A DNA stretch of 64,000 nucleotides from Nocardia asteroides. GTDB lineage: Bacteria; Actinomycetota; Actinomycetes; Mycobacteriales; Mycobacteriaceae. The position numbers were made by a program, and so were the translations under genes. Below the pieces are notes generated by a model. It was not told where the DNA came from, searched no databases, and was given only the letters and a program-made list of their open reading frames with translations. The DNA is taken from assembly GCA_019930625.1 (NCBI GenBank), contig CP082844.1, positions 4,216,001 to 4,280,000 on the forward strand, read 5' to 3'. Within the stretch, counting starts at the first letter, position 1. Every line of letters begins with the position of its first letter. Of the stretch, positions 22,427 to 40,471 are shown in pieces.

Positions 22427-22684
22427 CAGTTGCGATAGCTGTCTATTAACTGTTGGCGCAACCGGTTTCGGCCGCGCGCGCTCCGGCTCCGGGTTGCCTT
22501 TCGTTGTGCGCTACCGGAAACTTGTCGGACTGAAACCGGGAACGTGCCACGGTGTGTCGCGTTCCTATCGGCGTGTCACGAAATTTTTCCGGCGATGCGG
22601 CAGTAATAGCCGGAATCTGTTACGGTCTATTGCGTTTCATGGCGTTGAGGGTAGCTGCGGCAAACGACTTGATTGCGGATCGCT

Positions 22685-24370: not shown

Positions 24371-25339
24371 ATGTTGAAGTCGTACAAACAGCTTTCCCGC
24401 TGGTACGGCGCTTTGGAGCCGGAGACCGGTGCGCCGGAGGCAGGCAAGCGGGACGAGGCGAACGCCATCATCCCGGTGGATGACGACGGCCCTTCGCGCT
24501 ATCCGGACTACATTCGCGACGACGACGAGCCGTGGCAGCGCAAACCCGAGGACGCCCCGGCGGATCTGCCCGCGCAGCACAGCGAGTTCACCGGCGGGTG
24601 GTCGGATTGGGTGGTGACCGGGCACGCTCCCGGTCCCGACGACGACTACGTCGCGCCGAGGCAGGCCGGTCCCGCGCAGTTCCCATGGGCGGATGACGAC
24701 GACCACGAGCCCGTCGACCGGCCACGCCCCGCGGTCTCGCGCGGGCTGCGGCAAGCCGCCCGCGACCACCCCGCCATGCGCCGGGCCCGCGTGCTGCTCA
24801 TCGTGATCGCGGCGGTGCTGATCGTCGCCGTGGCAGCCGTGTGCGTCCTGTTCCTGCTGCGCGCCGCGGGTGATCGCGCCGCGCAGCCGCGAGACTCGCA
24901 TGTCTCCGCGTCGGTCCAGCTCACCGTCGGCAGCGCGCAGGCGGGAAGCAATCCGCGCGCGGTGAGCGCGGGCGCCTGCCCCACCGAGCGCAGCGACGCG
25001 ATCGTGCGCAGCGCGGAGGCGGGGGGCACGGGGTCCGGGCCCGACGCGGTGCTGTCGTTCCAGTACGCGTACTACGTGGAGCGCTCCGGGGAACGGGCCC
25101 GCGCGGCCGTCGCCCCGGACGCCGACGTCCAGCCCGCCTGGGTCATCCAGCGGGGCATCGACTCGGTTCCGGCGGGCACCACGCATTGCGTGCGGATCGT
25201 GACCGTCGGCGACAACCGGTATTCGGTCGAGGTCACCGAGTATCGGCCCGGCGGCGCGCCCGCCACGTACAACAGGCAGGTGGTCACCACCGCGGTGATC
25301 GACGGCCGCACCCTGATCACGGGTATCGCGGCCGGATAA
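24371..25339 (+). CDS. Single-pass membrane protein, first gene of the T4SS-like operon
   Basis: I do not recognise a named family with certainty. The 322-residue protein has an acidic, Pro/Asp-rich cytosolic region (residues 1-140), one membrane helix (VLLIVIAAVLIVAVAAVCVL, about 141-165), and an extracytoplasmic domain of about 155 residues. In that domain the helix LSFQYAYYVERSGERARAAV followed by strands ending VITTAVIDGRTL-like sequence looks like an NTF2-type fold. Two Cys (GACPTE and THCVRI) could form a disulfide. Similar topology occurs in VirB8/TcpC-like conjugation proteins; this is inference. It lies 15 bp before the ParA-like gene. Confidence 0.7.
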   Translation: MLKSYKQLSRWYGALEPETGAPEAGKRDEANAIIPVDDDGPSRYPDYIRDDDEPWQRKPEDAPADLPAQHSEFTGGWSDWVVTGHAPGPDDDYVAPRQAGPAQFPWADDDDHEPVDRPRPAVSRGLRQAARDHPAMRRARVLLIVIAAVLIVAVAAVCVLFLLRAAGDRAAQPRDSHVSASVQLTVGSAQAGSNPRAVSAGACPTERSDAIVRSAEAGGTGSGPDAVLSFQYAYYVERSGERARAAVAPDADVQPAWVIQRGIDSVPAGTTHCVRIVTVGDNRYSVEVTEYRPGGAPATYNRQVVTTAVIDGRTLITGIAAG

Positions 25340-25354
25340 AGGAGAGCAGAGGCG

Positions 25355-26233
25355 ATGGGAGAGGACTGGAGCCGCTGGCTCGACGAAGCGCCCGGCGAGG
25401 GTGCGGCGTCGAGCCGGCCGGTGCGCTCCAAGGCTCCGGTGGTGCGGTTGCGGCGCCGCAAGGGTGACGGCTCCGAGGCGGATCATCCGGTGCAACGGCC
25501 GATCCTGGTGGTCGGCGGATGTGGTGGTGCGGGAACCACCACGACAGCGTTGGGCTTGGCGGGTGAACTGGGTACGGCCGGGACGCCGACAGTCGCGGTG
25601 GACGCCACCACGGCGGGCAGCGATCTCGCGCTGCGCGGCGCGGACGAGCATCTGCACCCGATCAGCTTGCAGTCCTGGTTGTACGGACGCGGTGACGACG
25701 AACCCGCGCCGCTCAAGGAGTGCCTGTCACGCGCGACTTCCGGCATCGGGCTGCTCTGGCGTGATGCCGCGCCGTTGCGCAGGCGTGCGACGTATCTCAC
25801 GGTCGCCCGCGCGGTGCACGACGCCGGATACACCGCCGTCTACGACGGGGGACATCCGATTGCCGCGAGGCAACTGACGCCCTTGCTCGACGACGCGGAT
25901 GTTGCTCTGGTACTTGCCATTCCGGCCCGCACCGACGCGGCCAACCGGTTGCGGGTCGCGCTGGAATGGCTCGATGACCAGTTCGGTGACACCGGAGAAG
26001 GGCACGGCGGCGGCGTCGTCGGCGATACCACCATCGTCGTCTCCCACCAGTATCCGGGTGACGACTCCCGGGTAGCGGATCATTTGCGTGAGCACCTGTC
26101 CGGCTGGGTCCGCGATATCAGGGAGATTCCCTACGATCCGCATCTGGCCCGCGGTGAACTGGTGCGGCACGCCTCGTTGGCCGCCGAGACGCGCCGGGCA
26201 TATGGGCGCCTGCTCGCCGGGGTGGCATCATGA
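25355..26233 (+). CDS. MinD/ParA-like P-loop protein with degenerate Walker A
   Basis: The 292-residue protein has the SIMIBI fold pattern: PILVVGGCGGAGTTTTALGLA (core GGCGGAGTTT, residues 54-63), then VAVDATTAGSDLALR in place of the ParA aspartate segment. Both lysines of the normal KGGxGKT motif are missing. The C-terminal half (LLDDADVALVLAIPARTDAANRLRVAL, core DVALVLAIPART) matches the partner-sensing part of ParA/CpaE relatives. It probably positions or regulates the secretion apparatus rather than segregating DNA. GGAGAGC precedes the ATG, and it overlaps the next gene by 4 bp. Confidence 0.75.
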   Translation: MGEDWSRWLDEAPGEGAASSRPVRSKAPVVRLRRRKGDGSEADHPVQRPILVVGGCGGAGTTTTALGLAGELGTAGTPTVAVDATTAGSDLALRGADEHLHPISLQSWLYGRGDDEPAPLKECLSRATSGIGLLWRDAAPLRRRATYLTVARAVHDAGYTAVYDGGHPIAARQLTPLLDDADVALVLAIPARTDAANRLRVALEWLDDQFGDTGEGHGGGVVGDTTIVVSHQYPGDDSRVADHLREHLSGWVRDIREIPYDPHLARGELVRHASLAAETRRAYGRLLAGVAS

Positions 26234-26892
26234 CCGCCGCCATGATTTTTCCGCGTCAGCCCGACCCCGCGCCCGCCGGTGTGATCGCCCCGCCGGAGTC
26301 CCGCCGTGCCGCCGTCTGGGACCGCCCCGTCCCCGGTGTCGGCCGTGCGCCGCTGGTCTGGCTGCTGGGTGTGCACGGCGGCGCCGGAGCCAGTACCCTC
26401 GCGCACGTGCTTGCGCCCGCGGCGGATTCGGGCCGCCGCTGGCCCGGCGTCTTCGACCGCGAAAGTCCGTTCGTCGTCCTCGTCGCCAGGGAGACCATCG
26501 CCGGGCTGTCCCGCGCGCACGACCTTCTGCGCCAGCATCTTTCGGGTTTCGCCGGTCCCTGCGACGTGCTCGGCCTGATCACCGTCGCCGCGCGGCCCGG
26601 CCGGATGGCTCCCGAGATCCGGCGCTACCGCGACGTGGTCGGCTCCCTGGCCGGGCAGGTGTGGCAGGTGCCGTGGTACGAGGAGTGGACGCTGGTCGAA
26701 CCCGAGCAGCTGCCGGTGTGGTCGCCCGGTGACCCGCTGCCGCCCAAGAAGCGCAAGCTCGATCTGCTGGAGGAAGTCCCGCTCGATGTCCGGGAGCTCG
26801 GCGCCGACATCGTGGCGGCCGCTCGGACGGCATTGGAGGAGGCCAGCTACGACCGCCGGTCACCCGATCTCCGCAAGCCGTCCGATGAGTGA
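26230..26892 (+). CDS. Second P-loop-like protein (DUF6668-type)
   Basis: The 220-residue protein has a central GGAGAST motif (residues 50-56) after a hydrophobic strand (PLVWLLGVH), again lacking the P-loop lysine. A strand FVVLVARETIAGLSRAHDLL (core VVLVARETI) follows. The second half has a VWQVPWYEEWTLVEPEQLP segment and an Arg/Lys-rich end. I match it to the DUF6668 group by its GGAGAST and W-x-V-P-W-Y pattern, which is often found beside SCO6880-type genes. Function is unknown; pairing with the ParA-like protein is suggested by the 4-bp ATGA overlap. Confidence 0.65.
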   Translation: MTAAMIFPRQPDPAPAGVIAPPESRRAAVWDRPVPGVGRAPLVWLLGVHGGAGASTLAHVLAPAADSGRRWPGVFDRESPFVVLVARETIAGLSRAHDLLRQHLSGFAGPCDVLGLITVAARPGRMAPEIRRYRDVVGSLAGQVWQVPWYEEWTLVEPEQLPVWSPGDPLPPKKRKLDLLEEVPLDVRELGADIVAAARTALEEASYDRRSPDLRKPSDE

Positions 26893-26943
26893 ACGTCCGC
26901 ATCGCATCGGCGACAACCACCCACTATTCGAGAAAGGCACCCG

Positions 26944-27240
26944 ATGAGCATGATCCTCCTCGCCGTGCAGGACACGTACGGCACCGTACTCGCGCAAGTC
27001 GGTAATCCGACGCCCGAGGCGCCGCCGGGCTCGGAGAAGATCCTGCAGCTGGTGCGGTATCTCACGTGGTTCGTCCTGTTGTCCGGGATCTGCGGGATCA
27101 TCTACGCCGGCGGTAGGTTCGCCTGGGAGAAGTGGACCGGCGGTGGTCTGGAGTCGCCGAAGATGGTGGCGGGCGCGATGATCGGCGGCGTGGTCGCCAC
27201 GAGCGCGGGCACCATCATGAACGCCGTCATCGGCACCTGA
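26944..27240 (+). CDS. Small two-helix membrane protein, TrbC/VirB2-like
   Basis: The 98-residue protein has an N-terminal leader-like stretch, then two membrane helices: YLTWFVLLSGICGIIYAGGR and a Gly/Ala-rich second one (MVAGAMIGGVVATSAGTIM). The size, the Gly-rich second helix and the position before a TrbL-like gene match VirB2/TrbC pilin-like subunits, but no pilin-processing site is clear. A GAGAAAGG site precedes the start. Its stop codon overlaps the start of the next, related gene by one base. Confidence 0.6.
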   Translation: MSMILLAVQDTYGTVLAQVGNPTPEAPPGSEKILQLVRYLTWFVLLSGICGIIYAGGRFAWEKWTGGGLESPKMVAGAMIGGVVATSAGTIMNAVIGT

Positions 27241-27524
27241 TGTCGGCGATGAGTACTGTGCGCATGCCCGCGGCGCAGCTGCTGGCCTACAAACAGATGC
27301 CCGCCGACGTTCTGGCACCGCTGATGCAGCTGCTGAACTGGCTGCTGTGGTTCGTCCTGCTGGTGTGCCTGGCCTGGATGATCGTGTCCGCGGGGAAGCT
27401 GTGGCTGACCTTCCGCAGCGATCTGGCCATGAACGATGCCTCGCACGGCGTCCTGATGAGTCTGCTGGGTGCCGTGGTGGCGAGCACGGCGTCGGGGATC
27501 GCCCTGGCGTTCCTGCCCGCGTGA
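27240..27524 (+). CDS. Small two-helix membrane protein, paralogue of the preceding one
   Basis: The 94-residue protein has two membrane helices (LNWLLWFVLLVCLAWMIVSAG and VLMSLLGAVVASTASGIALA). Alignment by eye with the preceding protein keeps L-x-W-F-V-L-L in helix 1 and G-x-V-V-A-S/T-x-x-G in helix 2. It starts at the ATG that shares its A with the preceding TGA. The two probably arose by duplication and may form a mixed channel or pilus base. No other function can be assigned. Confidence 0.6.
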   Translation: MSAMSTVRMPAAQLLAYKQMPADVLAPLMQLLNWLLWFVLLVCLAWMIVSAGKLWLTFRSDLAMNDASHGVLMSLLGAVVASTASGIALAFLPA

Positions 27525-27555
27525 GCCGCCGGATCGGGACGGGGACGACGCGGGA

Positions 27556-28212
27556 ATGAATTCGACAGTACTGCGGCCTGCGGACTCCGCGGCGTGGCGG
27601 CGCGACATCCGCCGCCCCGCGGCCGGAGTCGTGGGCGCCGCGCTGCTGTTCGCGGCGGTCGGCTGTGGCGGTAACGAGGACTCGGCGGGGCCGGATCTGT
27701 CGGCCGCTCCCACCAACGTCCGGTGGCAGCCGTTCCAAGGTGTGCCGCTGCCGCACACCGACCAAGGGCCGCGCTCGACGGCCGACGGCGCGGCGACCGG
27801 TTTCGACCACTCGCCACGCGGGGCGGGCATCGCCGCGCTGACCCATTCGGTCCGCTTGGCGGTGGCCGCCGATACCCAGTGGGCGAAAGTGGCTGCCAGG
27901 GAAGTGGTTCCGGGCCCGGCCAAGGACGAGTGGGCGATCAACCGGGTGCAGCTGTCCATCACCGGCCCGGCGGGACCGGAGTTCGCTCCCCGCTTGCTGG
28001 GATACCGGATCACCGGTTATACCGAGCGGCATTCCACCGTCGACGTGTACACCGAATACTCCGACAGCTCCAAGGCGGTGCACCACACGGCCGTCGAATG
28101 GTTCGGCGACGACTGGAGATTGCGGCTTCCCGATCCGGACTCGACCGCACGACCCATCGACTCGATCGACGCATTACCCACCGACATAGTGAAATTGGAG
28201 GCACCGACGTGA
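27556..28212 (+). CDS. Lipoprotein, first of three tandem paralogous envelope proteins
   Basis: The 218-residue protein has an Arg-rich N-terminus, a hydrophobic stretch and a lipobox FAAVGC (Cys37). The mature domain shares a motif with its two neighbours: GFDHSPRGAGIAAL at residues 82-95, and a closing strand DDWRLRLPD. The predicted pattern, a helix followed by strands and a W-R-L end, suits an NTF2/VirB8-like fold. It is probably anchored on the outer face of the membrane. It overlaps the following gene by 4 bp (GTGA). Confidence 0.7.
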   Translation: MNSTVLRPADSAAWRRDIRRPAAGVVGAALLFAAVGCGGNEDSAGPDLSAAPTNVRWQPFQGVPLPHTDQGPRSTADGAATGFDHSPRGAGIAALTHSVRLAVAADTQWAKVAAREVVPGPAKDEWAINRVQLSITGPAGPEFAPRLLGYRITGYTERHSTVDVYTEYSDSSKAVHHTAVEWFGDDWRLRLPDPDSTARPIDSIDALPTDIVKLEAPT

Positions 28213-29021
28213 GCGACAGGGAGTCGTACGCGCGCGACCGTGTCTCCTTCGGTGTCGTCGCCTCCGCCGCCGTGCTGGCGCTCATCGTGGTGGTCGGCAT
28301 CTTCGTCTTCGTCGGCCGCGACGACGAGAGCATCAGCGGCGCACCGGCCGTCACCGAGGGCTCGGGCGGCACCGGCTTCGCCACCCCTGAGGTGGACATC
28401 CTCGGCAGACGGGTGGATATCCCCAACAATGCGGCCGGACAACCGCTTCCGCAGGACCCCTCCCGCCAGCGCAAGCCCACCGATCCGGATTGGCTGACCG
28501 CGGCGCCGGAAGGCACCACCGAACCGCACGGCTGGCAGCGGGTGTACGGCGCCTCCGTCCCGTTCTCCACCTCCGACGGGCCGACGCGGATCGAGGACGA
28601 CCTGGCCGTCGGCTACTCGCACACCCCGCAGGGCGCGGTGCTGGCCGCGGCGCAGATCACCTACCGGCTCAACGCGCGTCCCGCCGACCGCGACCTGTAC
28701 GTGCGGCAGGTCCGAGTCTCCGCCCAGCAGATCGCCGCCTACGACAAGGCGCTGGCCGACGACCGTCTGCCGCAGCAGCAGCCGGAGAAGGTGACTCGCT
28801 ACTTCGTCGCCTCGGACGCGTTCAAAGTGGACGACTACGCCGACGATCTCGCCATCATCCGGCTGGCAACCAGGGGACCGGTGGTGGACGGCAAGCAGCT
28901 GTGGGCGGCGACGCGCCTGGTCATGGTGTGGGATGCAGGGGACTGGCGCCTGAAGCCCTCGACCACCAACAACGCGCAGACCGAGTACCTCGAATCGTTG
29001 ACGGGGTGGACGAGATGGTGA
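28209..29021 (+). CDS. Membrane-anchored envelope protein, second tandem paralogue
   Basis: The 270-residue protein has one N-terminal membrane helix (about residues 14-35), a Gly/Thr-rich linker, a GRRVDIP segment, and the shared motif GYSHTPQGAVLAA at residues 135-147. The domain ends GDWRLKP near the C-terminus. It is clearly paralogous to the next gene (GRRVD, HTPQGA, DRDL, DAF-YADDFA-type and GDW motifs all align). Start is the GTG in a GTGA overlap. By topology it is a candidate VirB8/TcpC-type scaffold protein. That role is inferred. Confidence 0.7.
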   Translation: MSDRESYARDRVSFGVVASAAVLALIVVVGIFVFVGRDDESISGAPAVTEGSGGTGFATPEVDILGRRVDIPNNAAGQPLPQDPSRQRKPTDPDWLTAAPEGTTEPHGWQRVYGASVPFSTSDGPTRIEDDLAVGYSHTPQGAVLAAAQITYRLNARPADRDLYVRQVRVSAQQIAAYDKALADDRLPQQQPEKVTRYFVASDAFKVDDYADDLAIIRLATRGPVVDGKQLWAATRLVMVWDAGDWRLKPSTTNNAQTEYLESLTGWTRW

Positions 29022-29851
29022 CCACGCGCAGATCCGGCCGGATGCCCTTGGCGCTGATGGGCGCGGGCGCGGTGATCAGTGTCGCGCTCGCGGTTGCACT
29101 GACGACTGTCGCTCTGCGAGACAACGCATCCGGAGACGAACCGGTCGCTGCGACGGGCACGACATCGGGCACCGCTGCAGATCCCGGCGGCGCGGCCTTC
29201 GGTAATCCCGAGAACGACATGTTCGGCCGCCGGGTCGATGTGCCGATCCGCGCGACAGGTGTTGTCCTGCCCCAGCATCCGGACCAACAACAGCGTCCGG
29301 GCACGCCCGGATGGATCTCCGCTGCACCCACGCCGTCGAGCGGCGAGGGCGTATGGCAGCGGGTGTTCGGTGGTCCTGTCGTGCGCTTCTCCGCTTCCGA
29401 CGGCCCTGCTAGGATCGACGGCTCCGCTGCCCTGGGCTTCGCGCACACTCCGCAGGGCGCCGCGCTGGCCGCCGAGCAGATCTACTGGCGGACCAACGCC
29501 AATCCCAAAGATCGTGACCTGCTGATTCGGCTGGTCGATGTGACGCCGCAGTACTTGGCCGAGTACGACCGGCTCGTCGCCGAGGGCAAAGTGTCCGACC
29601 GCCTGCCCGACAAGCTGAGGCCCCTGTTGTTCGCTTCGGATGCGTTCCGGATCGAAAGCTATGCAGATGATTTCGCGAAAGTGCAGTTTGCGAGAAAGGC
29701 TCGAGAAACAGTTGATGGCCAACCAACATGGGTGGGCATGCGCCTGGCGGTCCGGTGGCGAGACGGAGATTGGAAGCTCACCCCGGTGACAGGTGACGAG
29801 CGAGTACAGATCGAGTCCCTGCGGAGCATCGAGGGGTGGACACAATGGTGA
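29015..29851 (+). CDS. Membrane-anchored envelope protein, third tandem paralogue
   Basis: The 278-residue protein has one N-terminal membrane helix (about residues 11-33), a linker, GRRVDVP, the motif GFAHTPQGAALAA at residues 141-153 and the final GDWKLTP strand. It aligns along its length with the previous gene. ATG at 29015 or GTG at 29018 could start it; both overlap the previous stop. Part of the 3' half (about 29620-29830) uses AT-richer codons such as AGA, ACA and CAA, unlike its neighbours. It overlaps the TrbL-like gene by 7 bp. Confidence 0.7.
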   Translation: MVTTRRSGRMPLALMGAGAVISVALAVALTTVALRDNASGDEPVAATGTTSGTAADPGGAAFGNPENDMFGRRVDVPIRATGVVLPQHPDQQQRPGTPGWISAAPTPSSGEGVWQRVFGGPVVRFSASDGPARIDGSAALGFAHTPQGAALAAEQIYWRTNANPKDRDLLIRLVDVTPQYLAEYDRLVAEGKVSDRLPDKLRPLLFASDAFRIESYADDFAKVQFARKARETVDGQPTWVGMRLAVRWRDGDWKLTPVTGDERVQIESLRSIEGWTQW

Positions 29852-31317
29852 GGCGCCTAGTCACGATATTCGCGGTCATCTTCACGGTGATGATCGCGAC
29901 GCCGACCGTGGCCTACGGCCAGACCTACGGTTTCGACGAGACGTGCAACGAGATTCATGACACGCTCGACAACGTCGGACTGCCCGGCATTTCTCTCGGT
30001 GACGCCGCGTCCGCCGCGTGCAAGGCGGGCAATGCCGCCTCGCATCCCGGCCAGGCCGCCGAGGCGGTGAAGGACAAGGCCTGGGACTCGACCTTCGGCA
30101 AGGTGGTCGATTCGCTGATGAACGGTCTCGGCCAGGCCATCATCCTGGCGTTGACCTTCTGGATGAAGGTGCCCAACGAGGCGGTCAGCGACTCCGGCTC
30201 ACTGTTCACGAAGATCAACGACTACACCTATCAAGCGCAGATCCTGCTGTTGATAGCGTCGGTGATCCTCTCCGGCGCGCGATTGGCCGAAGCCAGACGC
30301 GGGGCCACGATGAACGAGGCGGCCGAATCGTTCCGGATGTTCACCCGCGTCGTGTTCAGCTCCTGGATGCTGGGCGCGGTGATCGTGGCGGGCACGCAGG
30401 CGTCGGATCGTTTCGCGGAGTGGATCATCAGCGACTCGACCAACGGCAACGCCAAGGACCTCGCCGAGCTGATGGTGAAAACCAGCAAGCTGCAAGCTTT
30501 TTCACCGGGCCTGGTGCTGATCATCGCGATCGTCGGCCTGCTCGGCGCCCTCGCGCAGATCGTGCTCGCCATCGTCCGGCAAGGTCTGCTGGTGATCGCA
30601 GCGGGCGTGTTGCCGCTGGCGGCGGCGGCCTCCGGCATGAACGTCGGCAAGCAGTCCTATCAGAAGCTCATCGGCTGGATCATCGCCTTCATGCTGTGGA
30701 AACCGGTGGCGGCGATCGTCTACATGATCGCGTTCACCACCGCGGGCCACGTCGACTCGCTCACCCCGACCGGCGGTCTGCCCGACGGTGAGCAGGCCCA
30801 GCGCATGCTGGTCGCGATCGTGCTGCTGTGCAGCGTGGCGTTCGTGCTGCCCGCGCTCATGCGACTGGTCACTCCGGCCGTCGCGATCGTCGGCAGCGGC
30901 GGTTCGGGTTTCACCGCGGCGGGCGGCACCCTGGTCGGTGTGGCGGCCCTGGGCGCGATGGGCACCAAGGCGGTCGGCGTCAAGGGCGCCGCGGCGGCGG
31001 GCGCGCCCGGCTACGTGGGCGGCAGCGGCACCGGGCCCCGGCCCGGCGGTCCGGCCGGACCGCGTGGCGGCGGCGCACCGCGGCCGACCCCGCCACGAGG
31101 TGGCGGCGGTGGTCAGGGTGGTGCGGCACCGCGCGCCTCCGGACCAGCGGGCGCGGCGGGAGTAGCGTCCGGAGCGGCCAGGGCGGCCGGCCGGATCGGC
31201 GCGGCGCGCGCCGCGAGCGGCGGCCTGAGCCGGGCCGACCAAGCCATGGGTGACGTCGCGGGCGATCGCTGGACGAACCGTTCACCCGACCTCGGGAGGA
31301 GCACCATTCCGCGATGA
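29845..31317 (+). CDS. TrbL/VirB6-like polytopic channel protein
   Basis: The 490-residue protein has a signal peptide-like start (LVTIFAVIFTVMIATPTVAYG). A soluble loop comes next, then about six membrane helices between residues 90 and 370, including IILALTFWMKVPNEAVSD, IVGLLGALAQIVLAIVRQGL and LLVIAAGVLPLAAAASGM. The C-terminal 120 residues are Gly/Ala/Pro-rich and disordered. This matches TrbL/VirB6 inner-membrane channel subunits of type IV systems in Gram-positive bacteria. ATG at 29845 overlaps the previous gene, and the end overlaps the next gene by ATGA. Confidence 0.75.
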   Translation: MVRRLVTIFAVIFTVMIATPTVAYGQTYGFDETCNEIHDTLDNVGLPGISLGDAASAACKAGNAASHPGQAAEAVKDKAWDSTFGKVVDSLMNGLGQAIILALTFWMKVPNEAVSDSGSLFTKINDYTYQAQILLLIASVILSGARLAEARRGATMNEAAESFRMFTRVVFSSWMLGAVIVAGTQASDRFAEWIISDSTNGNAKDLAELMVKTSKLQAFSPGLVLIIAIVGLLGALAQIVLAIVRQGLLVIAAGVLPLAAAASGMNVGKQSYQKLIGWIIAFMLWKPVAAIVYMIAFTTAGHVDSLTPTGGLPDGEQAQRMLVAIVLLCSVAFVLPALMRLVTPAVAIVGSGGSGFTAAGGTLVGVAALGAMGTKAVGVKGAAAAGAPGYVGGSGTGPRPGGPAGPRGGGAPRPTPPRGGGGGQGGAAPRASGPAGAAGVASGAARAAGRIGAARAASGGLSRADQAMGDVAGDRWTNRSPDLGRSTIPR

Positions 31318-32804: not shown

Positions 32805-32811
32805 GCGATTC

Positions 32812-34956
32812 ATGGCACGGGACTACGAGCCACCCGTACGGGAACGGGACGAGGACGCACGTCGCAGGCGGCTCGAACAATCCGGCCGGGACGAGTGGGG
32901 ACAGCGGCCGGAGCGCCGCCGCCCCGCACGGGATTCGGCGCGGGTGAACGGCGAGGACCGGCCGGGCGTCGACGCGCCCGATCGGCGGACGGCGGAGCGG
33001 CGGACGCGAGCGGGCACGGGCCGGTCCGACGGCGTGCGCGGCGACCGGGCGCACGCCGAACGTCCACGCGGTGAGCGGAACTCTCGGATGTCCCGTGACG
33101 CGGTCACCGAGCGCATCGCCGCGCGGCCGGAACGCAACGGCGGCAGAAACGGCCGGGTGGCGCGGTCGGCGAAGGTCGACTACACCGCCGACCGCGCCAT
33201 GGGCGCCCCGTACACGGACAAAGCGGCTCGCCGCGCGAAGGCGAAAGCGGATCGGCGCAAGCAGTCCGGTCCGCCGCTGCTGGACGACGCCACCCGCGCC
33301 AAGCTGGAGATGATCGCCCGCGAGGGCAGTGGCCTGCGTGCGGCGTGGGCGCAGTTCCGGGTTCGCACCGACGACATCCGCCGCCGCAACTACGCGGCCC
33401 GCGCGGAGCAGACGATCGAGGACGGATTCGACCGCAGCACAGCCCAGCTCACCGACCGCGGCTACGCGGGACCGGGAGGCGGGCGCATGAACGTGGTCGG
33501 CCGCCCGGTGGAGTACCGCGCCACCACCGCCCAGGTCGCCGGCCTGTGGCCGTGGTCGGTCGGCGCGGGCGCGCCGCTGATCGGCACGCCCCTCGGTTCA
33601 CATCTGCACACCGGTGCGCCGGTCTGCTTCGATCCGATGAACTGGTTCATGCGCGGCAGTTTCATCACCGCCCCCAGCCTGTTCGTACTCGGCCTCAACG
33701 GTTTCGGCAAGTCCTCGCTGGTGCGCCGGATCGTGCTCGGCGGCATCGCGCAGGGGATCACGCCGTTGATTCTCGCCGACGTCAAACCGGACTACCGCAA
33801 GATGGTCGAACTGGTCGGCGGCCAGGTGATCGATCTGGGCTACGGGCACGGCAAGCTGAACCCGCTGGCGGCGGGCGTGCTCGGTGCGGTGGTGCCCCGA
33901 CTGGAGGAGTTCCCGGCACTGCAACTGCAGGTGTTGCAGGACCTTCGGGCCCGGCAGGTGACGCTGATCGCGGGTCTGGTCGAATTGGTGCGCGGCGACC
34001 GCGTCCGCGACTACGAGGAGACGCTGATCTCCACCGCGCTGCGCATCCTCTACCGGCCGGGCAGCGGATACACGCCGGACAAACCGCCGATCATGGAGAA
34101 CCTCCTCGAGGTGATCGTCGGCGGCGGTGAGGAATTGATGCTCGACGCCGGTTCCGACAATCCGGCCGAATACCAGGAAGCGATCAAGGGGCTGCGCCGC
34201 TCCCTGCGCGCGCTCACCCAGGGCCCCTTCGGCGCGGTGTTCAACGGCCAGACCACCGTGCCGATCGACACCAGCGCGGTCGCGGTGTGCATGGACGTCT
34301 CGCACATCCCGACCGGCGACAAGAAGCTCAAGGCCGCTGTCATGCTGGCCTGCTGGGCCGACGGATTCGCCTCGGTCGAGGCCGCGCACGTGCTCGCCGA
34401 CGCGAAGCTCGGCCCACAGCGCTATTTCCAAGTGGTGATGGACGAGCTGTGGCAGGTGCTCGGTCTCGGCGACTTCATGGTCGACCGCGTCGACGAGCTC
34501 ACCCGGCTGCAGCGCGGCATCGCCACCGCGCTGATCATGATCAGCCACACCATCAAGGACCTGCAAGCGCTCGGATCGGAAGCCGCCATCGCGAAAGCGC
34601 TCGGTTTCCTCGAGCGGGCGCGCGCCAAGATCTTCGGCGCGCTCCCGGCCGAGGAGATCAAACGGCTCGACAGCACGGTTCCGTTCACATCGGCCGAGGA
34701 GGAGATGGTGACCGGATGGTCCGCACCGCAAGCGCTGACCGGCGAGGCGCTCAAACCGGGGCAGCAGCGCCCTTCCCCGCCCGGCACCGGTAAGTTCCTG
34801 CTGAAGATCGGCGAGGACCGTCGGCCCGGCATCCCCTTCCACATGGAATTCACGCTGTCGGAGAAGGAAAGCGGAATCCACGACACCAACCAGCGGTTCA
34901 GCGAGTTCACCGAATCGACTTCGCGCGGATCGAATTCGCCGGGGAGCGCCGCATGA
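32812..34956 (+). CDS. VirB4-like T4SS ATPase
   Basis: The 714-residue protein has a strongly charged, Arg/Glu-rich disordered N-terminus (residues 1-135), then a linker domain, and a VirB4/FtsK-type motor: Walker A LGLNGFGKSS at residues 293-302 and Walker B VVMDELWQ around 541-548. Late motifs include ISHTIKDLQALG, comparable to the conserved arginine/glutamine region of VirB4. It would energise assembly or transport at the inner membrane together with the SCO6880-family protein just upstream. It overlaps the next gene by 4 bp. Confidence 0.85.
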   Translation: MARDYEPPVRERDEDARRRRLEQSGRDEWGQRPERRRPARDSARVNGEDRPGVDAPDRRTAERRTRAGTGRSDGVRGDRAHAERPRGERNSRMSRDAVTERIAARPERNGGRNGRVARSAKVDYTADRAMGAPYTDKAARRAKAKADRRKQSGPPLLDDATRAKLEMIAREGSGLRAAWAQFRVRTDDIRRRNYAARAEQTIEDGFDRSTAQLTDRGYAGPGGGRMNVVGRPVEYRATTAQVAGLWPWSVGAGAPLIGTPLGSHLHTGAPVCFDPMNWFMRGSFITAPSLFVLGLNGFGKSSLVRRIVLGGIAQGITPLILADVKPDYRKMVELVGGQVIDLGYGHGKLNPLAAGVLGAVVPRLEEFPALQLQVLQDLRARQVTLIAGLVELVRGDRVRDYEETLISTALRILYRPGSGYTPDKPPIMENLLEVIVGGGEELMLDAGSDNPAEYQEAIKGLRRSLRALTQGPFGAVFNGQTTVPIDTSAVAVCMDVSHIPTGDKKLKAAVMLACWADGFASVEAAHVLADAKLGPQRYFQVVMDELWQVLGLGDFMVDRVDELTRLQRGIATALIMISHTIKDLQALGSEAAIAKALGFLERARAKIFGALPAEEIKRLDSTVPFTSAEEEMVTGWSAPQALTGEALKPGQQRPSPPGTGKFLLKIGEDRRPGIPFHMEFTLSEKESGIHDTNQRFSEFTESTSRGSNSPGSAA

Positions 34957-35261
34957 TGCCGCACCGGTCCTACCGCCGCGTCTCACCGGAGGTACGCCAA
35001 GCGGCGGTCGAACAGGTCATCGCGCTGACCGGCAAGCTGCGCAGTGAATCGGAGGCCTGCCGCGTGGTCGCCGAACAGATCGGCGTGCACACGAATTCGG
35101 TGCGGAATTGGGTGCGCGCGGCCGAGGGGCCGAGTCTGGAGCGGATGGACGCGACGGCGCTGCGGCGCAAAGTCGCACTGCTGCAACAACAATTGGCGGC
35201 CGCCGCCGAGATGAACCGCACGTTGGCCGACACCCTCAACGAAGCCCGGCGCCGGACGTGA
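34953..35261 (+). CDS. IS3 OrfA-like helix-turn-helix protein inside the T4SS operon
   Basis: The 102-residue protein matches the transposase_8 (IS3/IS911 OrfA) pattern: RRVSPEVRQAAVEQV, then a helix-turn-helix with SEACRVVAEQIGVHTNSVRNW (core GVHTNSVRNWV), and a C-terminal leucine-zipper-like helix with LRRKVALLQQQLAAAAEMN. There is no OrfB integrase frame, no terminal inverted repeat and no target duplication. Its start lies in an ATGA overlap with the VirB4-like gene, so it is translated as part of the operon. I infer a domesticated DNA-binding protein, possibly a regulator. Confidence 0.7.
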   Translation: MMPHRSYRRVSPEVRQAAVEQVIALTGKLRSESEACRVVAEQIGVHTNSVRNWVRAAEGPSLERMDATALRRKVALLQQQLAAAAEMNRTLADTLNEARRRT

Positions 35262-35298
35262 AGCACGGCTGCGCGCGGCACGATGCCGGAGTGCGGCG

Positions 35299-36963
35299 AT
35301 GAGCGGCAAATCGGCGTTGTGGACGGCGCTGGGCGCGGTGCTCGGCCTGATGACCATCGTGCTGGTCATCGTCATGCCCGCCGTGGACGATGCCTGCGAG
35401 GGCGGGTCGGTGCTGGGCTCGCAGTCGGCGCTTCCGCCGCTGGGCGGTTACGCGCCGGGCGATCGGCGCGCTGCCGCGACCACGGGTCCCGGCGCGACAC
35501 AGACCAATCCGGCGGCGACCGCCACGCCCTCGCTCGCCGCGGGCGCCGGTCCGCTGCGCCGCACGCTGCCGATGGCCACCGGAACCTTCACGGTGTCGGA
35601 CACCTTCGGCTCGCGGGGTGGCGCGCACCGGGGCATCGACTTGGCCGCGGCCGACGGCACGCCCATCTTCTCGGTATCCGACGGCCGGGTCGTCGCCGCG
35701 GGTCCGGCGTCGGGGTTCGGCAACTGGATCGTCGTCGATTCGGTGGATACCAACGGCCGTTCGTACTCGGCGGTCTACGGACACATGTGGGACTCCGGCG
35801 TGTTCGTCCGTGCGGGCGACACGGTGACCGCGGGACAGCACATCGGTGCGGTGGGTTCGGCGGGTGAATCCAGCGGCCCCCATCTGCATTTCGAGATCGT
35901 CCCGGGCGGCCGGTTCACCGGAGGACGCCAGATCGACCCGCTGCCCTGGTTGGACGGCGCGCCGACCCCGGACGTCGGCGGTGCGCGCGCCTTCTCCAGC
36001 GATCCACGCTGCACTCTCGGCTTCGGCACCGCCGGTGGCGCGCTCGCCGCGGGGAAGGTGCCGCAGGAACTGGAGATCTGGTACCGCCGGGCGGGTTCGA
36101 TCTGCCCGCAGGTCACGCCGTCGCTGCTGGCCGCGCAGGGCAGGCAGGAGTCCGGTTTCCGGCGCGGCGCGACCTCCCCCGCCGGTGCGCAGGGGCTGGC
36201 GCAGTTCCTGCCGACCACGGCGGTGAGCATCAATCCCGACGACGGTCAGCCCTACGTGATCGACGCCGACGGCAACGGCGTGGCCAGTGTGTGGGACGAC
36301 GGTGACGCGATCATCGGTCAAGGGCGCTACATGTGCGCGATCGCGCACAAGATCCAGCGGTGGCAGGCCGAGGGCCGCGTGCAGGGCGATCTCGTCGCGC
36401 TGGCACTGGCGGCGTACAACGCGGGCGAGGGCGCGGTGCTGGCCTCCGGCGGCATGCCGAACCAGCTCGCGGCACACTATGCCGAGACCCAGCCGTACGT
36501 GCGCAACATCCTCGCGATGGAGGCGCAGTACCGAGCGCCGGGTTCGGTCGGCCGATTCACCCCCGGGCAGGGGTCGACAGGCGACCAGATCGTGGAAGCC
36601 GCGCACGAATGGCTCGGCACCCCTTATGTCTGGGGCGGCGGCGGACCCCAAGGACCCACCGGCGGAGGACTGGACGGACCGGGCTTGACCGCGGCGGCGG
36701 TGTTCGCGGCGTCCTCCGGCACGGTGACGCTGCCGCGCACGGCCGAACAGCAATGGGAGGCGGGTGCGGAAGTGCCGATGAGCAAGGCGCGGCCGGGAGA
36801 TCTGGTGTTCAGCTCGTTCGGTCCGCGTGGTCCCGCGCAGGTCGGTGTCTACGCCGGGAACGGGCGGATGATCCAATCGGTGCCGGGTGCGGATTCCCGC
36901 TCCGCGGGCGGTGTTTCGGAAGTCGCGGTCCCGGGGGACGGACGTGCGAGGAGGGTGTTGTGA
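35299..36963 (+). CDS. VirB1-like peptidoglycan hydrolase: M23 + lytic transglycosylase + inactive NlpC/P60
   Basis: The 554-residue protein has an N-terminal membrane helix (residues 8-27) and three wall-active modules. An M23 endopeptidase (residues about 95-215) keeps its zinc ligands H110, D114 and HLH at 195-197. A lytic transglycosylase (about 255-410) keeps the catalytic E284 in GRQESGF and the AGAQGLAQFLP and AAYNAGEG motifs. An NlpC/P60 domain (about 428-548) has GTPYVWGG and PGDLVF, but the DCSGL nucleophile is DGPGL (Cys to Gly460) and the catalytic His is Gln514. It would open the cell wall for the secretion apparatus. It overlaps the next gene by GTGA. Confidence 0.88.
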   Translation: MSGKSALWTALGAVLGLMTIVLVIVMPAVDDACEGGSVLGSQSALPPLGGYAPGDRRAAATTGPGATQTNPAATATPSLAAGAGPLRRTLPMATGTFTVSDTFGSRGGAHRGIDLAAADGTPIFSVSDGRVVAAGPASGFGNWIVVDSVDTNGRSYSAVYGHMWDSGVFVRAGDTVTAGQHIGAVGSAGESSGPHLHFEIVPGGRFTGGRQIDPLPWLDGAPTPDVGGARAFSSDPRCTLGFGTAGGALAAGKVPQELEIWYRRAGSICPQVTPSLLAAQGRQESGFRRGATSPAGAQGLAQFLPTTAVSINPDDGQPYVIDADGNGVASVWDDGDAIIGQGRYMCAIAHKIQRWQAEGRVQGDLVALALAAYNAGEGAVLASGGMPNQLAAHYAETQPYVRNILAMEAQYRAPGSVGRFTPGQGSTGDQIVEAAHEWLGTPYVWGGGGPQGPTGGGLDGPGLTAAAVFAASSGTVTLPRTAEQQWEAGAEVPMSKARPGDLVFSSFGPRGPAQVGVYAGNGRMIQSVPGADSRSAGGVSEVAVPGDGRARRVL

Positions 36964-37583
36964 GCGTCCACCGGTCCGAACACGCGGCGGCGGGACTGCC
37001 GCGCCGCCCCGGTATGCGGCTAGCCTGGATGGATAGAGCAAGTGCACGCGCGAAACTGGTGGTGATGCTGGTGGTGAGCGTCGCGGTGCTGAGCGCGGCC
37101 TGTGGCGGCGTGGACGCGGGATCCGATGCGGCGCGCCCCGCTACGTCCACACCCCGGTTGCTGGAAGGCGTGCCCGCCCCCGACCCTGTGACGCCCGACG
37201 GCGTCGCGGTCGCGGCGCTGCGGGAGATCTACAGCTGGCAGCCCGCCACGGAGAGCCAAGGCACCTCGCTGGGCCGGGCTCGGAAGTTTCTCGGCCCCAG
37301 CCTGATTCGTATGCTGGATGCGGCGCCGACCGCGGTGGAGACGCCGAAGTCGACGCTGCAATGGGCGGATTGGGCGAGGGAAGGGGCGCGCGTGGAGGCG
37401 TTCACGTTCGCGTCAGGGGAGAAGGCGCCGACTCTCAGCGACCCGAACGTCCAGCAGTTCAAGATCGGGATCGAGCAGACCGTCGTCTATCCGGACGGGC
37501 GCAAGGAGCCGCTGCCGCCCGCGACGGTGATCGCCACCGTCGTGCGCACACCCGATGGCTGGCGGCTCGACGCATTCCGCTGA
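36960..37583 (+). CDS. Lipoprotein of the T4SS-like operon with NTF2-like domain
   Basis: The 207-residue protein starts at the GTG of a GTGA overlap. Internal ATGs at 37014 and 37029 are alternatives that place the signal nearer the start. A hydrophobic stretch (LVVMLVVSVAVLSAACGG) ends in the lipobox LSAAC. The mature domain has a helix AALREIYSWQP and strands ending TPDGWRLDAFR, the same D-G-W-R-L end seen in the three tandem envelope paralogues. This suggests a common NTF2/VirB8-like fold, although the HTPQGA motif is absent. Confidence 0.68.
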   Translation: MSVHRSEHAAAGLPRRPGMRLAWMDRASARAKLVVMLVVSVAVLSAACGGVDAGSDAARPATSTPRLLEGVPAPDPVTPDGVAVAALREIYSWQPATESQGTSLGRARKFLGPSLIRMLDAAPTAVETPKSTLQWADWAREGARVEAFTFASGEKAPTLSDPNVQQFKIGIEQTVVYPDGRKEPLPPATVIATVVRTPDGWRLDAFR

Positions 37584-37625
37584 CCACCCGCTTTCCGTAC
37601 CGGACGGCCGACCCAGGAGGCACAC

Positions 37626-39458
37626 ATGGCGAAGAAGAAAAAGGTGACGGATCCGGCCGTGCCCGGACCCGATGTCAGCCTGCTACTGACCTACGCCGGC
37701 TTCGCGATCTTCGGAACCCTCTGGCTCGCGCTGCATCTGGGCAACCTGCTGGCAGGCAGCCCGCAGAAGGTCCCGTTCAACCCGATCGCCATCGCGGCCG
37801 ATCTGGCACGGGGCAAGCTGCAATGGCCGGGCGCGGCCACCGCGATCATACTGCTGGTGATCCTGAGCGTGATCGCCTATCTGGTGATCCGCAAGCGGTT
37901 GCAGAAGCACCGGACGAAGGGCAGGCTGCCGGTCGACGACAAGGCCGACGTGATGGGCAACGGCGGCGCGATCTCGATGCTCACCGAGGCGGGTGTCCGG
38001 GAGAAGGCCCAGCAGCTCGGCGTGAAACTCGGCTACGACGATCTTCCCGGCGTGCCGATCGGTATCGGTGTGGCCGACGGGGTGATGCTCTACGGCTCCT
38101 ATGAGGATCTGCATCTGGACATCTGGGGTCCCCGTCAGGGCAAGTCGACATCCCGCGTGATCCCGGCGATCCTCACCGCGATCGGCCCGGTACTGGCCAC
38201 CTCGAACAAACGCGACGTGGTCGACGCCACCCGAGACGTCCGCGAGGCCAAGGGAAGTCCCACCTTCGTCTTCGATCCGCAGGGTGTCGCGGGCGAAGAG
38301 CCGACCTGGTTCTGGGATCCGCTGTCCTGGGTTGATGCCAAGCGCGAGGGCTGTGAAATGCGCGCGGCGCGCTTGGCGGGGCACTTCGCCGACGGCGACG
38401 ACGGCCGCGACACCAAGACCGACGCGTTCTTCGATCCCGAGGCCGAGGACCTGCTGGCCGGACTGTTCCTCGCCGCCGCGGTCGGCGATCGCAACGGCAG
38501 CAGGCCGATCGTGCAGGTGTGGGAATGGGTGACCAACCCGCAGGACACCGAGCCCATCGAACTCCTGCGCGCCGCCCGCCATCACTACACGGCCTCGGGT
38601 CTGTCCTCGCAGTACAACACCGACCCGCGGACGCGCAGCGGCATCTTCGGCACCGCCAAGAAGATGATCCGCTGCCTGAAGTTGTCGAACGTGCATCCGT
38701 GGATCACCCGCGGCGGCGACCGCAGGGAATTCGACGAGCTGGAGTTCCTGGACAACAACGGAACGCTCTACAGCCTGTCGCTGGAAGGCCGCGGGTCGGC
38801 CGCCCCCCTGGTGAGCGCGCTCACCGAGGCGGTAGTGGACGTGGCGATGCGGAAGGCGTCGCAGTCGGCCGGTGGGCGACTGGCGATCCCGATGCTCGCG
38901 GTGCTCGACGAGGCCGCGAACGTGGTGCGCTGGAAGGATCTGCCCAAGCAGTACAGCCACTTCGGCTCGCGCGGCATCGTGGTGATGACGGTGCTGCAGT
39001 CCTGGGCGCAGGGCGCGCGCTGCTGGGGCGAGAGCGGCATGAACGCGCTGTGGTCGGCGGCGAACATCAAGGTGCTCGGCAGCGGCGTGGACGACACCAA
39101 GTTCCTGCAGGAACGTTCGGACGTGCTCGGCGATTACGACGCGATCTCGCAGTCGGTCTCCGAATCCAAGGGGGGCAAGAGCTACTCGCGTTCGCTCAGC
39201 TCGTCCAAGACGTTCTCGGTCAACGGTTTGGCGACGCTGCCGCGCGGCCGGGCCATCCTGTTCCCCTCCGGTGCGCCACCGGTGCTCATCCGGACCGTGC
39301 CGTGGTGGGAGGGTGAGTACGCTGCCGACGTGAAGAAGTCCATCTCGCGTCACGATCCGCAGCGCAAGACGGAGATCACGGACCTGGGCTCGCCGTCGCT
39401 GACCAAGTCGACGCCGCCGCAGGAACAGGGACAAGTCGAGGAGGTTCGGCCGCTGTGA
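37626..39458 (+). CDS. VirD4/TraG-type coupling ATPase (TraM-recognition type)
   Basis: The 610-residue protein has two N-terminal membrane helices (about residues 18-44 and 70-92) and a cytosolic motor with Walker A GPRQGKST (168-175) and Walker B LAVLDEAA (about 424-431). C-terminal motifs include LQSWAQGARCWGESGM and ALWSAANIKVLG, as in TraG/VirD4 proteins with a TraM-recognition domain. Coupling proteins select substrates and hand them to the channel. An AGGAGG site 6 bp before ATG and the 42-bp gap suggest independent translation. It overlaps the DUF4913 gene by GTGA. Confidence 0.88.
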   Translation: MAKKKKVTDPAVPGPDVSLLLTYAGFAIFGTLWLALHLGNLLAGSPQKVPFNPIAIAADLARGKLQWPGAATAIILLVILSVIAYLVIRKRLQKHRTKGRLPVDDKADVMGNGGAISMLTEAGVREKAQQLGVKLGYDDLPGVPIGIGVADGVMLYGSYEDLHLDIWGPRQGKSTSRVIPAILTAIGPVLATSNKRDVVDATRDVREAKGSPTFVFDPQGVAGEEPTWFWDPLSWVDAKREGCEMRAARLAGHFADGDDGRDTKTDAFFDPEAEDLLAGLFLAAAVGDRNGSRPIVQVWEWVTNPQDTEPIELLRAARHHYTASGLSSQYNTDPRTRSGIFGTAKKMIRCLKLSNVHPWITRGGDRREFDELEFLDNNGTLYSLSLEGRGSAAPLVSALTEAVVDVAMRKASQSAGGRLAIPMLAVLDEAANVVRWKDLPKQYSHFGSRGIVVMTVLQSWAQGARCWGESGMNALWSAANIKVLGSGVDDTKFLQERSDVLGDYDAISQSVSESKGGKSYSRSLSSSKTFSVNGLATLPRGRAILFPSGAPPVLIRTVPWWEGEYAADVKKSISRHDPQRKTEITDLGSPSLTKSTPPQEQGQVEEVRPL

Positions 39459-39841
39459 CCGAGCAGCAGCAACAACCGATGATCTACGCGAGCGTGGTGG
39501 AGTTCGTCGAGAACTATCTCAGCCTGGTCTACCGGCGGCAGGTCACCGATCTCAGTGACACGGTGTGGTGCCCGGAGTGGTGGCAGCATGCCGAGGCGAT
39601 CGCCCGCCTGGACGCACTGTGGCGGGCCTGGGAGCACTACCGGCTGGACGGGCGGACCGGATTGAGCGTCTGGTTCCTGGATCACGCGGACCCGCACATG
39701 TCGAAGCTGTTCGACCCCAAGGGGCCGTTCAAGTACTGCAGTGTGCGCAACGGTCACAAGGACATGCTCAGCCCGCTGCCCCTGAAGTCGCCGCAGCACG
39801 GCATGTTCGGTGATCCCACAGTGGGTGACTTCCGCACGTGA
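39455..39841 (+). CDS. DUF4913 family protein
   Basis: The 128-residue protein matches DUF4913: VVEFVENYLSLVYRR, then the aromatic WCPEWWQHAEAIARLDALWRAWE (core CPEWWQHAEAIARL) and SVWFLDHADPHMSKLFDPKGPF. The family is found next to coupling-protein genes in actinobacterial plasmids and islands. Its role is unknown. Being translationally coupled to the VirD4-like gene, it may be a substrate adaptor, which is inference. It is the last gene of the operon, followed by a strong terminator. Confidence 0.88.
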   Translation: MTEQQQQPMIYASVVEFVENYLSLVYRRQVTDLSDTVWCPEWWQHAEAIARLDALWRAWEHYRLDGRTGLSVWFLDHADPHMSKLFDPKGPFKYCSVRNGHKDMLSPLPLKSPQHGMFGDPTVGDFRT

Positions 39842-39884: not shown

Positions 39885-39911
39885 AACGCCCGCCGGAATC
39901 CGGCGGGCGTT
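39885..39911. terminator. Strong terminator ending the T4SS-like operon
   Basis: AACGCCCGCCGG-AAT-CCGGCGGGCGTT is a perfect 12-bp stem with a 3-nt loop, followed by TGTT. It sits between the operon and the convergent gene ending at 39923, so it may stop transcription from both sides. Confidence 0.88.
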
Positions 39912-39922
39912 TGTTCGTGCGG

Positions 39923-40471
39923 CTACCTCGTGCGTTCCAGGCCGCGGGATTCCTGTTCCCTCGCCCTGGTGACCGACGGCGCCTCGTCGGGGCGGCCGCG
40001 TACGGCTTCGCCCGGCGGTTGCGCCTGCCCTACTTCGATCAGCATCCGTACTGCCGCGAGTTCCGGCGCCACACCCATTTTGGCGAGATGGGCGGCGATC
40101 GCCATCCGCCGTTCCGCGGAATCGTATTGCATAGCAGGCTTGGCGGTGGCGGCGGCATTGGCCGCCATCCGTCCTGCCTCGGCCTGCGCGGAGAAGCGGT
40201 CCTTCTCCAAAGACACACCCTTTTCCGCGAGCGGCTTCTCGATCAGCCTGGCCAGCTCGGTATTGCGCGGGTCCTTGGCCTTCGCGTCCCTGGCTTCACG
40301 GAGCTGCAATTCCTTGGCCTCTTTGATACGGGCCTCGGTGAGCTTGGCGCGCGCTTCGGCTTCCTTCTGACCACGCTCGCGGGTCCGCAAGGCGACGAGC
40401 GTCGCAAGCTGCAACATTGTCCTCATCATGGCCGCGGTTTCCCGGCCGATGTCGTCCAGTTCCTCGGACAT
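39923..40471 (-). CDS. Coiled-coil protein of unknown function
   Basis: The 182-residue protein is mostly helical and charged. Residues 30-75 are Lys/Glu/Arg/Ala-rich with heptad-like spacing (EAEARAKLTEARIKEAKEL), and a second helical part has AERRMAIAAHLAKMGVAPEL. There is no signal peptide or membrane segment. I do not recognise a family. It is convergent with the T4SS-like operon and shares its terminator, and proteins of this composition occur beside such loci; a link is possible but not demonstrated. Confidence 0.65.
   Translation of the reverse strand: MSEELDDIGRETAAMMRTMLQLATLVALRTRERGQKEAEARAKLTEARIKEAKELQLREARDAKAKDPRNTELARLIEKPLAEKGVSLEKDRFSAQAEAGRMAANAAATAKPAMQYDSAERRMAIAAHLAKMGVAPELAAVRMLIEVGQAQPPGEAVRGRPDEAPSVTRAREQESRGLERTR

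Follow-up and report, generated by a model that had tools for sequence, protein, structure and literature searches.

The locus and its genes

The window analysed here is a 64-kb stretch of the Nocardia asteroides chromosome (G000:C1:4216001-4280000), from a genome of 7.4 Mb in two contigs; at positions 24371-39841 it holds a locus resembling a type IV secretion system (T4SS). Calling of open reading frames (ORFs) bears out the first-pass annotation, in which sixteen co-directional and mostly overlapping or closely spaced genes, here g1 to g16, had been described at this place (Table 1); sixteen is the gene number of this lineage, since g7 and g8 are a tandem duplicate. Counterparts of the locus in other genomes are termed residents, and 42 such loci were fetched, 41 from Nocardia and one (G176) from a sister genus.

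Three components that are looked for in a T4SS were found: a VirB4-type ATPase (g11), a VirD4-type ATPase (g15) and a VirB1-like wall hydrolase (g13). Of the labels given earlier, those of SCO6880, VirD4 and the hydrolase are upheld by profile matches above cut-off, whereas those of VirB4 and TrbL-like have weaker matches (to TraG_N in the latter case), below cut-off. The label NTF2-like, which had been given to g1, g6-g8 and g14, was not supported by Pfam or NCBIfam searches; g4-g8 and g14 match no family above cut-off, only each other and the mobile relatives described below. The two proteins that had been called P-loop-like, g2 and g3, do have this likeness, and in both a residue other than lysine occupies the lysine position of what we take to be the Walker A motif; g2 is present in 41/42 residents, being missing from G176, and its deviant motif recurs in 39 of these 41. 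Among the small and membrane-anchored proteins g4 is a candidate for a VirB2-like component and g7 for a VirB8-like one, and g12 is a conserved member of the module. The stem downstream of g16 is probably a bidirectional terminator between g16 and the convergent gene for a coiled-coil protein (cc).

The SCO6880-family protein g10 is predicted to adopt the fold of the VirB4 N-terminal domain behind two transmembrane (TM) helices; its model matches that domain and then chains of the ESX-3 and ESX-5 complexes. The g11 protein matches VirB4 families with E values of 5e-14 and 7e-7, though the models are narrow and the matches stay under their curated cut-offs. Because of the predicted fold of g10, we infer that VirB4 may here be split over two genes, with the N-terminal domain in g10 and the ATPase in g11; the role thereby offered for the hitherto unexplained SCO6880 family would be that of the missing VirB4 half in actinobacteria. 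Sequence searches of the PDB gave no match with VirD4 at E 0.001 and two apparently unrelated matches with the SCO6880 profile. In sequence, g10 also has sub-threshold similarity to EccE, and its likeness to EccE and to the ESX chains hints at a domain common to T4SS VirB4 and type VII secretion systems. The disordered-looking N-terminal extension of g11 varies strongly among Nocardia lineages, the protein having 714 aa in the window and 1204 aa in L060 (11376-14990).

Table 1. Features of the locus and its immediate neighbours, in positions of the window
Feature	Position	Strand	Evidence and occurrence
Cutinase-family serine hydrolase (Culp6-like)	22673..24313	+	PF01083 59 bits
g1, membrane protein, disordered N-terminus	24371..25339	+	no family above cut-off; 39/42 residents
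g2, ParA/CpaE-like P-loop protein, deviant Walker A GGCGGAGTTT	25355..26233	+	CbiA/CpaE matches weak, sub-cut-off
g3, DUF6668 P-loop-like protein, deviant Walker A	26230..26892	+	PF20373 28.3 bits (cut-off 27); 42/42 residents
g4, hydrophobic, 98 aa	26944..27240	+	no family; 42/42 residents
g5, hydrophobic, 94 aa, g4-related	27240..27524	+	hhalign g4-g5 probability 95.8
g6, lipoprotein-like, g7/g8 paralogue	27556..28212	+	hhalign 100% to g7, 99.9% to g8; several residents without g6
g7, membrane-anchored envelope protein	28209..29021	+	all 42 residents scanned
g8, tandem duplicate of g7, lineage-specific	29018..29851	+	41% identity to g7; separate full copy in 13/42 residents
g9, TrbL/VirB6-like polytopic membrane protein, Gly-rich tail	29845..31317	+	PF07916 21.6 bits, under 36.1 cut-off
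g10, SCO6880 family	31314..32804	+	NF042935 565.6 bits over whole profile (cut-off 60)
g11, VirB4-like ATPase domain, long disordered N-terminus	32812..34956	+	NF045975 51 bits; PDB 4ag5 VirB4 E 3e-4
g12, IS3 OrfA-like HTH protein	34953..35261	+	PF01527 28.7 bits; 41/42 residents (missing: G176); homologue in pDJL1
g13, wall hydrolase, M23 + SLT + NlpC/P60	35299..36963	+	M23 92 bits, SLT 38 bits
g14, lipoprotein-like envelope protein	36960..37583	+	profile matches 14 ORFs of mobile relatives
g15, VirD4/TraG coupling ATPase	37626..39458	+	PF12696 106 bits, PF02534 89 bits
g16, DUF4913 protein	39455..39841	+	PF16259 139 bits
Stem, 12 bp, 3-nt loop AAT	39885..39911		read from sequence; consensus scan does not list stem
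cc, coiled-coil protein, convergent to g16	39923..40471	-	34/42 residents; some fetched stretches stop short of cc

With relA upstream and ppiB and hisS downstream, the locus does lie within the relA-ppiB-hisS segment, as had been noted. Family and tRNA scans also agree with the earlier observation that no relaxase, integrase or tRNA end is visible. There is no tRNA anywhere in the window; neither an integrase nor an excisionase was detected among the sixteen genes and four neighbours, beyond which the scan did not extend; and no pair of repeats resembling the ends of an element occurs at 18000-46000, where the repeat families are of 22-39 nt with copies 65-91% alike. The marks of a self-transmissible element (ends at a tRNA or direct repeats, and patchy presence) are lacking. 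Such an element would also carry a relaxase, and the chromosome has none of the MOBP, MOBF or MOBQ families; in this genome PF03432 and PF08751 match only a 58-kb plasmid, C2, and PF03389 matches nothing (MOBV, MOBT and MOBC were not searched).

Distribution, inheritance and selection

A copy of g10 at 90-100% identity was found in 128/148 Nocardia genomes, three of these copies being clearly partial; the further full-length SCO6880 copies listed in Nocardia genomes are at most 77% identical to g10. True absence from the remaining 20 genomes was considered and rejected, as VirD4 is present in 19 of them (a g15 orthologue at 73-97%, sharing a contig with ppiB in 17 cases) and the one genome lacking it, G054, is an assembly of 1340 contigs; broken contigs are the likely cause of the missing SCO6880 matches. 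In all, g10 or g15 is found in 147/148 genomes, g15 alone having been looked at in 19 of these.

The place and order of the genes are equally constant. Twelve core genes are collinear and on a single strand in 40/40 fetched loci, and relA is upstream, within about 30 kb, in 42/42 residents. The locus is present in 15 of the 19 named Nocardia loci, each time with ppiB and hisS downstream; the other four are one short contig of a metagenome-assembled genome and three loci (L154, L155 and L159) with a different VirD4. In a subclade of six genomes (G069, G071, G072, G011, G106 and G141) the cutinase was not found and g13 lies upstream of relA instead. Outside the genus, a survey of 401 genomes of the family, from 30 genera, gave a single SCO6880 above 63% identity; this one, at 88%, belongs to G176, the sister-genus genome (4.2 Mb), where the locus likewise lies between relA and ppiB-hisS and g2 and g12 were not found. 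Among viral contigs VirD4 had no match and the SCO6880 alignment matched one locus, at 34%. The Nocardia-wide search and comparison of the relA-hisS interval that had been suggested as a check have returned the same place across the genus sample, and the pattern expected of an ordinary mobile element, namely strain-specific presence, repeats and a relaxase just outside, was looked for and not found. A strain-specific mobile element was rejected on the genus-wide constancy of place and order and the lack of element-end repeats.

Two side observations concern these searches. Draft Nocardia contigs (e.g. G117:C28, G051:C15 and G008:C27) often stop near the g9/g10 junction, and an SCO6880 gene at a contig end may seem absent. 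The VirD4-like genes at L154:9959-11689 and L155:9962-11629 (N. inohanensis and N. yamanashiensis) are 50-51% identical to g15, have no core T4SS match within 10 kb save a weak g9-like match in L155, and adjoin genes that by eye look conserved chromosomal.

The second check that had been proposed, for vertical inheritance, was run by comparing a tree of nine T4SS proteins with a tree of neighbouring core genes. The latter was built from relA, apt, secD, secF and the product of the ORF at 11232-12953, where apt, secD and secF were named by reading and position, without a family search, and several genomes lacked part of these genes in the fetched stretch. The trees are largely congruent: 22/39 splits are common to both, against two at most when labels were shuffled (n=200), and without G176 the patristic distances correlate with r 0.74, a value reached in 0/1000 permutations.

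Purifying selection on the locus is strong. For g10 the median dN/dS, taken over 10-11 close pairs, is 0.018, a tighter constraint than on relA (0.042); g4 has 0.025, g12 0.047 and the remaining genes 0.065-0.233, the value for g8 possibly mixing g7 and g8. Neither g11 nor g15 has lost its Walker A or Walker B motif in any of the 42 residents, Walker A of g11 reading GLNGFGKSS.

Mobile relatives and plasmids without a channel

The mobile relatives are represented by 16 fetched loci whose SCO6880s are more distant (51-78%), several of these loci being cut by contig ends. They hold a nearly full-length cutinase in 13 cases (E 1e-105 or better), g11 in 16, g6, g7-type, g9 and g13 genes in 15, g15 and g16 in 10 and g2 in five, and the g1 profile matches 15 of their ORFs. 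A single g7/8-type gene is present in the mobile relatives; residents have one to three of the g6-g8 group, and L060 shows a fourth, partial match to it. The apparent presence of g8 in 42/42 residents is a paralogy artefact of g7, and g8 was rejected as a genus-wide gene.

The clearest difference between residents and mobile relatives is in the NlpC/P60 domain of g13. In NlpC/P60 peptidases the roles of the cysteine and histidine residues are well established. In 42/42 residents, G176 included, the catalytic cysteine column holds G, A, E or Q and the histidine column never holds histidine (there is one gap). Four of the 16 mobile homologues have no NlpC/P60 domain; the other 12/12 keep both residues, the closest mobile relative, L081, being one of them. 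This last locus (G042:C1:6776600-6796599) is a second Nocardia module, with an SCO6880 77% identical to the resident one, and is the closest mobile-type relative seen. The gene for g13 is under purifying selection overall (dN/dS 0.083). Loss of the site is older than the split of Nocardia and G176; from this early loss, together with the purifying selection, the domain has probably been turned into a binding module.

The cutinase encoded upstream of g1 and the coiled-coil protein cc had been put forward as possible substrates of a protein secretion system. Both have homologues within the gene cluster of conjugative plasmids, and for this reason they are better read as parts of the machine, so that the proposal is not supported. 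A cutinase is annotated in pDJL1, where DUF4913 is annotated beside VirD4, and cc is homologous to the C-terminal part of a protein encoded beside DUF4913 in plasmids, with hmmsearch E values of 6.5e-11 (pDJL1), 2.9e-11 (pRErm46) and 1e-9 (the NBC_01388 plasmid). According to PMC6794481, pRErm46 is able to transfer itself and has a MOB-P relaxase as well as MobC; in that paper its murein endopeptidase and cutinase are suggested to aid passage of the DNA complex across the envelope, and work is cited in which a cutinase promotes conjugation of pFiD188. Given this role and the comparison of clusters, the cutinase of the window would be a component of the module, likely one that modifies the mycomembrane, and was rejected as a secreted substrate. 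A GYSQGA motif is present in 28/28 residents with a recognisable cutinase.

A complementary set of genes is found on plasmid C2 of the same host. It encodes MOBF and MOBP relaxases, a VirD4 (48% to g15) and a DUF4913 protein (51% to g16), and has no match to g9, g10, g11, g13 or the cutinase; the only SCO6880 match in the host genome is the resident g10. When 72,556 plasmid records were searched by tblastn with the C2 VirD4, 508 gave a match, 22 of them from Nocardia and 486 from others. Among the 60 best, the first nine and one lower record are from Nocardia, and these ten were searched whole: 0/10 have SCO6880 and 0/10 a VirB4-like protein, among these ten of the 22 Nocardia records. Each has a relaxase (seven by PF03432, one by a mobF annotation and two by PLSDB MOBP typing only), and DUF4913 is annotated beside VirD4 in seven of the eight that were read, NZ_CP133582 being the exception. 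All 14 non-Nocardia records with related VirD4s that were examined have both SCO6880 and VirB4 (Fisher 5e-7). These controls comprise four from Rhodococcus, three from Arthrobacter, two from Paenarthrobacter and one each from Prescottella, Dietzia, Pseudarthrobacter, Cnuibacter and Paraoerskovia; for pDJL1 and pRErm46, which are among them, the outcome was foreseeable from annotation. PLSDB types several of the channel-less Nocardia plasmids (e.g. NZ_CP129615; L126, L203) as non-mobilizable despite their PF03432 or MobF relaxases.

A C2-like VirD4 (74-84%) also occurs in three other genomes, G095, G017 and G093; the g10 search matched no SCO6880 in G017, a single one, weakly, in G093 and two in G095, both below resident level. 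The host chromosome has in addition a second T4SS-like locus, at about 310000-325000 of C1, with TcpC (PF12642), an AAA_10 VirB4 of 863 aa, an 820-aa membrane protein and SLT and DUF4226 proteins (L200, L201, L001), near PE/PPE- and EspC-like genes. Its VirB4 was found in 92/146 Nocardia genomes, nearly all at 76-96% identity; two of the four hosts of the C2-like VirD4, G017 and G093, have no match to it.

A proposed resident channel: readings and known systems

Our preferred explanation, which we hold to be somewhat better than even, sees in the locus a conjugation channel of the actinobacterial SCO6880 type that has been domesticated as a resident of the host and is used in trans by Nocardia plasmids that have no channel of their own. 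As part of it, the module would have become fixed between relA and ppiB-hisS before Nocardia and its sister genus parted, and its inheritance since then would have been largely vertical. The earlier suggestion of a conjugative element fixed in place is in keeping with the constant place and order, the largely congruent trees, the purifying selection, the chromosome without MOBP, MOBF or MOBQ and the lack of repeat or tRNA ends. More tentatively, and at somewhat less than even chances, the immobile channel may be a facility shared across the genus, to which a genus-restricted plasmid family brings only relaxosome and coupling protein, the channel having been remade (with its dead NlpC/P60 domain) before the genus diversified. 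Behind the explanation stand a complete, selected module with intact ATPase motifs and no detected relaxase on one side and plasmids with the complementary half on the other.

Mechanistically, g10 and g11 would together act as a split VirB4 that energises a channel of g9, g4, g5 and g7; g13 and the cutinase would open the peptidoglycan and the mycomembrane, and g15 would serve as the default coupling protein. Channel-less Nocardia plasmids, which bring a relaxase, a VirD4 of their own and in most cases a DUF4913 protein, could then dock their coupling protein on the chromosomal channel and be transferred, as the host-specific pattern suggests. Exchange of chromosomal DNA, or a role in growth or septation, are candidates for what the host gains.

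Several points weigh against the preferred explanation. The ten plasmids are the top of a ranked list (10/22) and amount to about seven distinct VirD4 types (two unread records being judged by record length and host), and the controls are 14/486, hand-picked. Because 16 Nocardia plasmid records carry SCO6880 themselves, the channel-less pattern marks one plasmid family and not all Nocardia plasmids. The plasmid VirD4s are 46-50% identical to the resident VirD4 and so no closer to it than two VirD4s of Rhodococcus-type plasmids (49-51%), and the second, unrelated T4SS-like locus could also serve as channel. Only in 28/42 residents can the cutinase be recognised over >60% of its length, which would count against its being indispensable. 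Since 9/30 well-supported splits of the core tree conflict with the T4SS tree, some recombination in the locus is likely. Finally, of 98 Nocardia genomes 20 have a MOBP relaxase and 70 a MOBF relaxase, and in 23 none of MOBP, MOBF and MOBQ, the families searched, was found; the resident g10 or g15 is present in all 23. Three of the 23 (G050, G088 and G094) are one-contig assemblies; another, G072, likely has a relaxase of an unsearched family, because its plasmid has an SCO6880 module of its own. With the locus kept in these 23/98 genomes, plasmids alone hardly explain its retention, and the lack of a detected relaxase in them speaks for some benefit to the host.

The same 23 genomes would be expected if the locus had been recruited to a host function, such as growth of the hyphae, septation, segregation of the chromosome or export of a host protein, any use by plasmids being incidental. 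This, the main rival, we consider possible and rather unlikely, placing it clearly behind the shared channel; it would fit the constraint on g10, tighter than on relA, and the NlpC/P60 domain dead in 42/42 residents, and it has a precedent in the cmd genes of Streptomyces coelicolor, whose mutants have sporulation and chromosome-segregation defects (PMC2782261, in the part available). However, VirD4, DUF4913 and the wall hydrolase are retained here, beyond the six-gene cmd cluster as described in that part, where null mutants of SCO6878 or SCO6881, which form a cluster with SCO6880, are reported without such a defect; and the channel-less plasmids would then go unexplained.

A VirD4 without a relaxase is the classical picture of effector T4SSs. 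As no chromosomal relaxase was found here, the locus could on that ground be a dedicated protein secretion system with effectors of its own; this seems improbable to us, as it contains no effector candidate, the cutinase and the coiled-coil protein being machine parts by comparison, and extends across the whole genus sample. Least probable of all, to the point of being scarcely credible, is a decaying or ordinary integrated conjugative element. Its absent relaxase, the lost NlpC/P60 site and the variable copy number of g6-g8 are what decay might leave; the same place and order genus-wide, the strong purifying selection and the ATPase motifs kept in 42/42 residents are not.

If the shared resident channel is the correct reading, it is the host chromosome that makes a family of Nocardia plasmids, among them pNF2 of clinical N. 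farcinica, competent for transfer, and such plasmids are misjudged when they are typed as non-mobilizable, as several are in PLSDB. The locus would also be a clear example of conjugation machinery that has become core equipment of its host and bears a molecular mark predating the genus. Among the titles listed in literature searches none names a resident Nocardia T4SS, and the word 'nocardia' is absent from the available part of a 2025 T4SS review (PMC12857230).

The locus may be compared with four known systems. The cmdABCDEF cluster of S. coelicolor (SCO4126-4131) is likewise a resident chromosomal cluster with a VirB4-like ATPase and an SCO6880-like protein, SCO6880 resembling cmdC; in the available part of PMC2782261 it has six genes and no effect was seen on transfer of an SLP2-derived plasmid, whereas the Nocardia locus keeps VirD4, DUF4913, the wall hydrolase and mostly the cutinase. 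Mycobacterial plasmids with T4SS and ESX loci, as covered in the available part of PMC12857230, share the presence of conjugation machinery in mycolic-acid bacteria; they differ in that no ESX gene was found among the genes scanned at the resident locus, save the sub-threshold EccE match of SCO6880. The rhodococcal plasmids are closest in gene content: pDJL1 has a cutinase, a ParA-like protein, an M23-NlpC hydrolase, g1-, g6-, g7/8- and g14-like genes, SCO6880, a VirB4-like protein, an HTH protein, VirD4 and DUF4913, and pRErm46 a closely similar set as far as tested. Both are mobile, with a MOBP relaxase and MobC and with the NlpC/P60 cysteine and histidine kept (for pDJL1 by annotation and typing, for the mobility of pRErm46 by the available part of PMC6794481), whereas the resident locus is chromosomal, has no detected relaxase, a dead NlpC/P60 domain and a partly different gene order. 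With the VirB3-VirB4 inner membrane complex of R388, lastly, it has in common a VirB4 N-terminal domain (the g10 model) and a VirB4 ATPase (g11); the difference is that in Nocardia this domain is predicted to lie behind two TM helices, apart from the ATPase.

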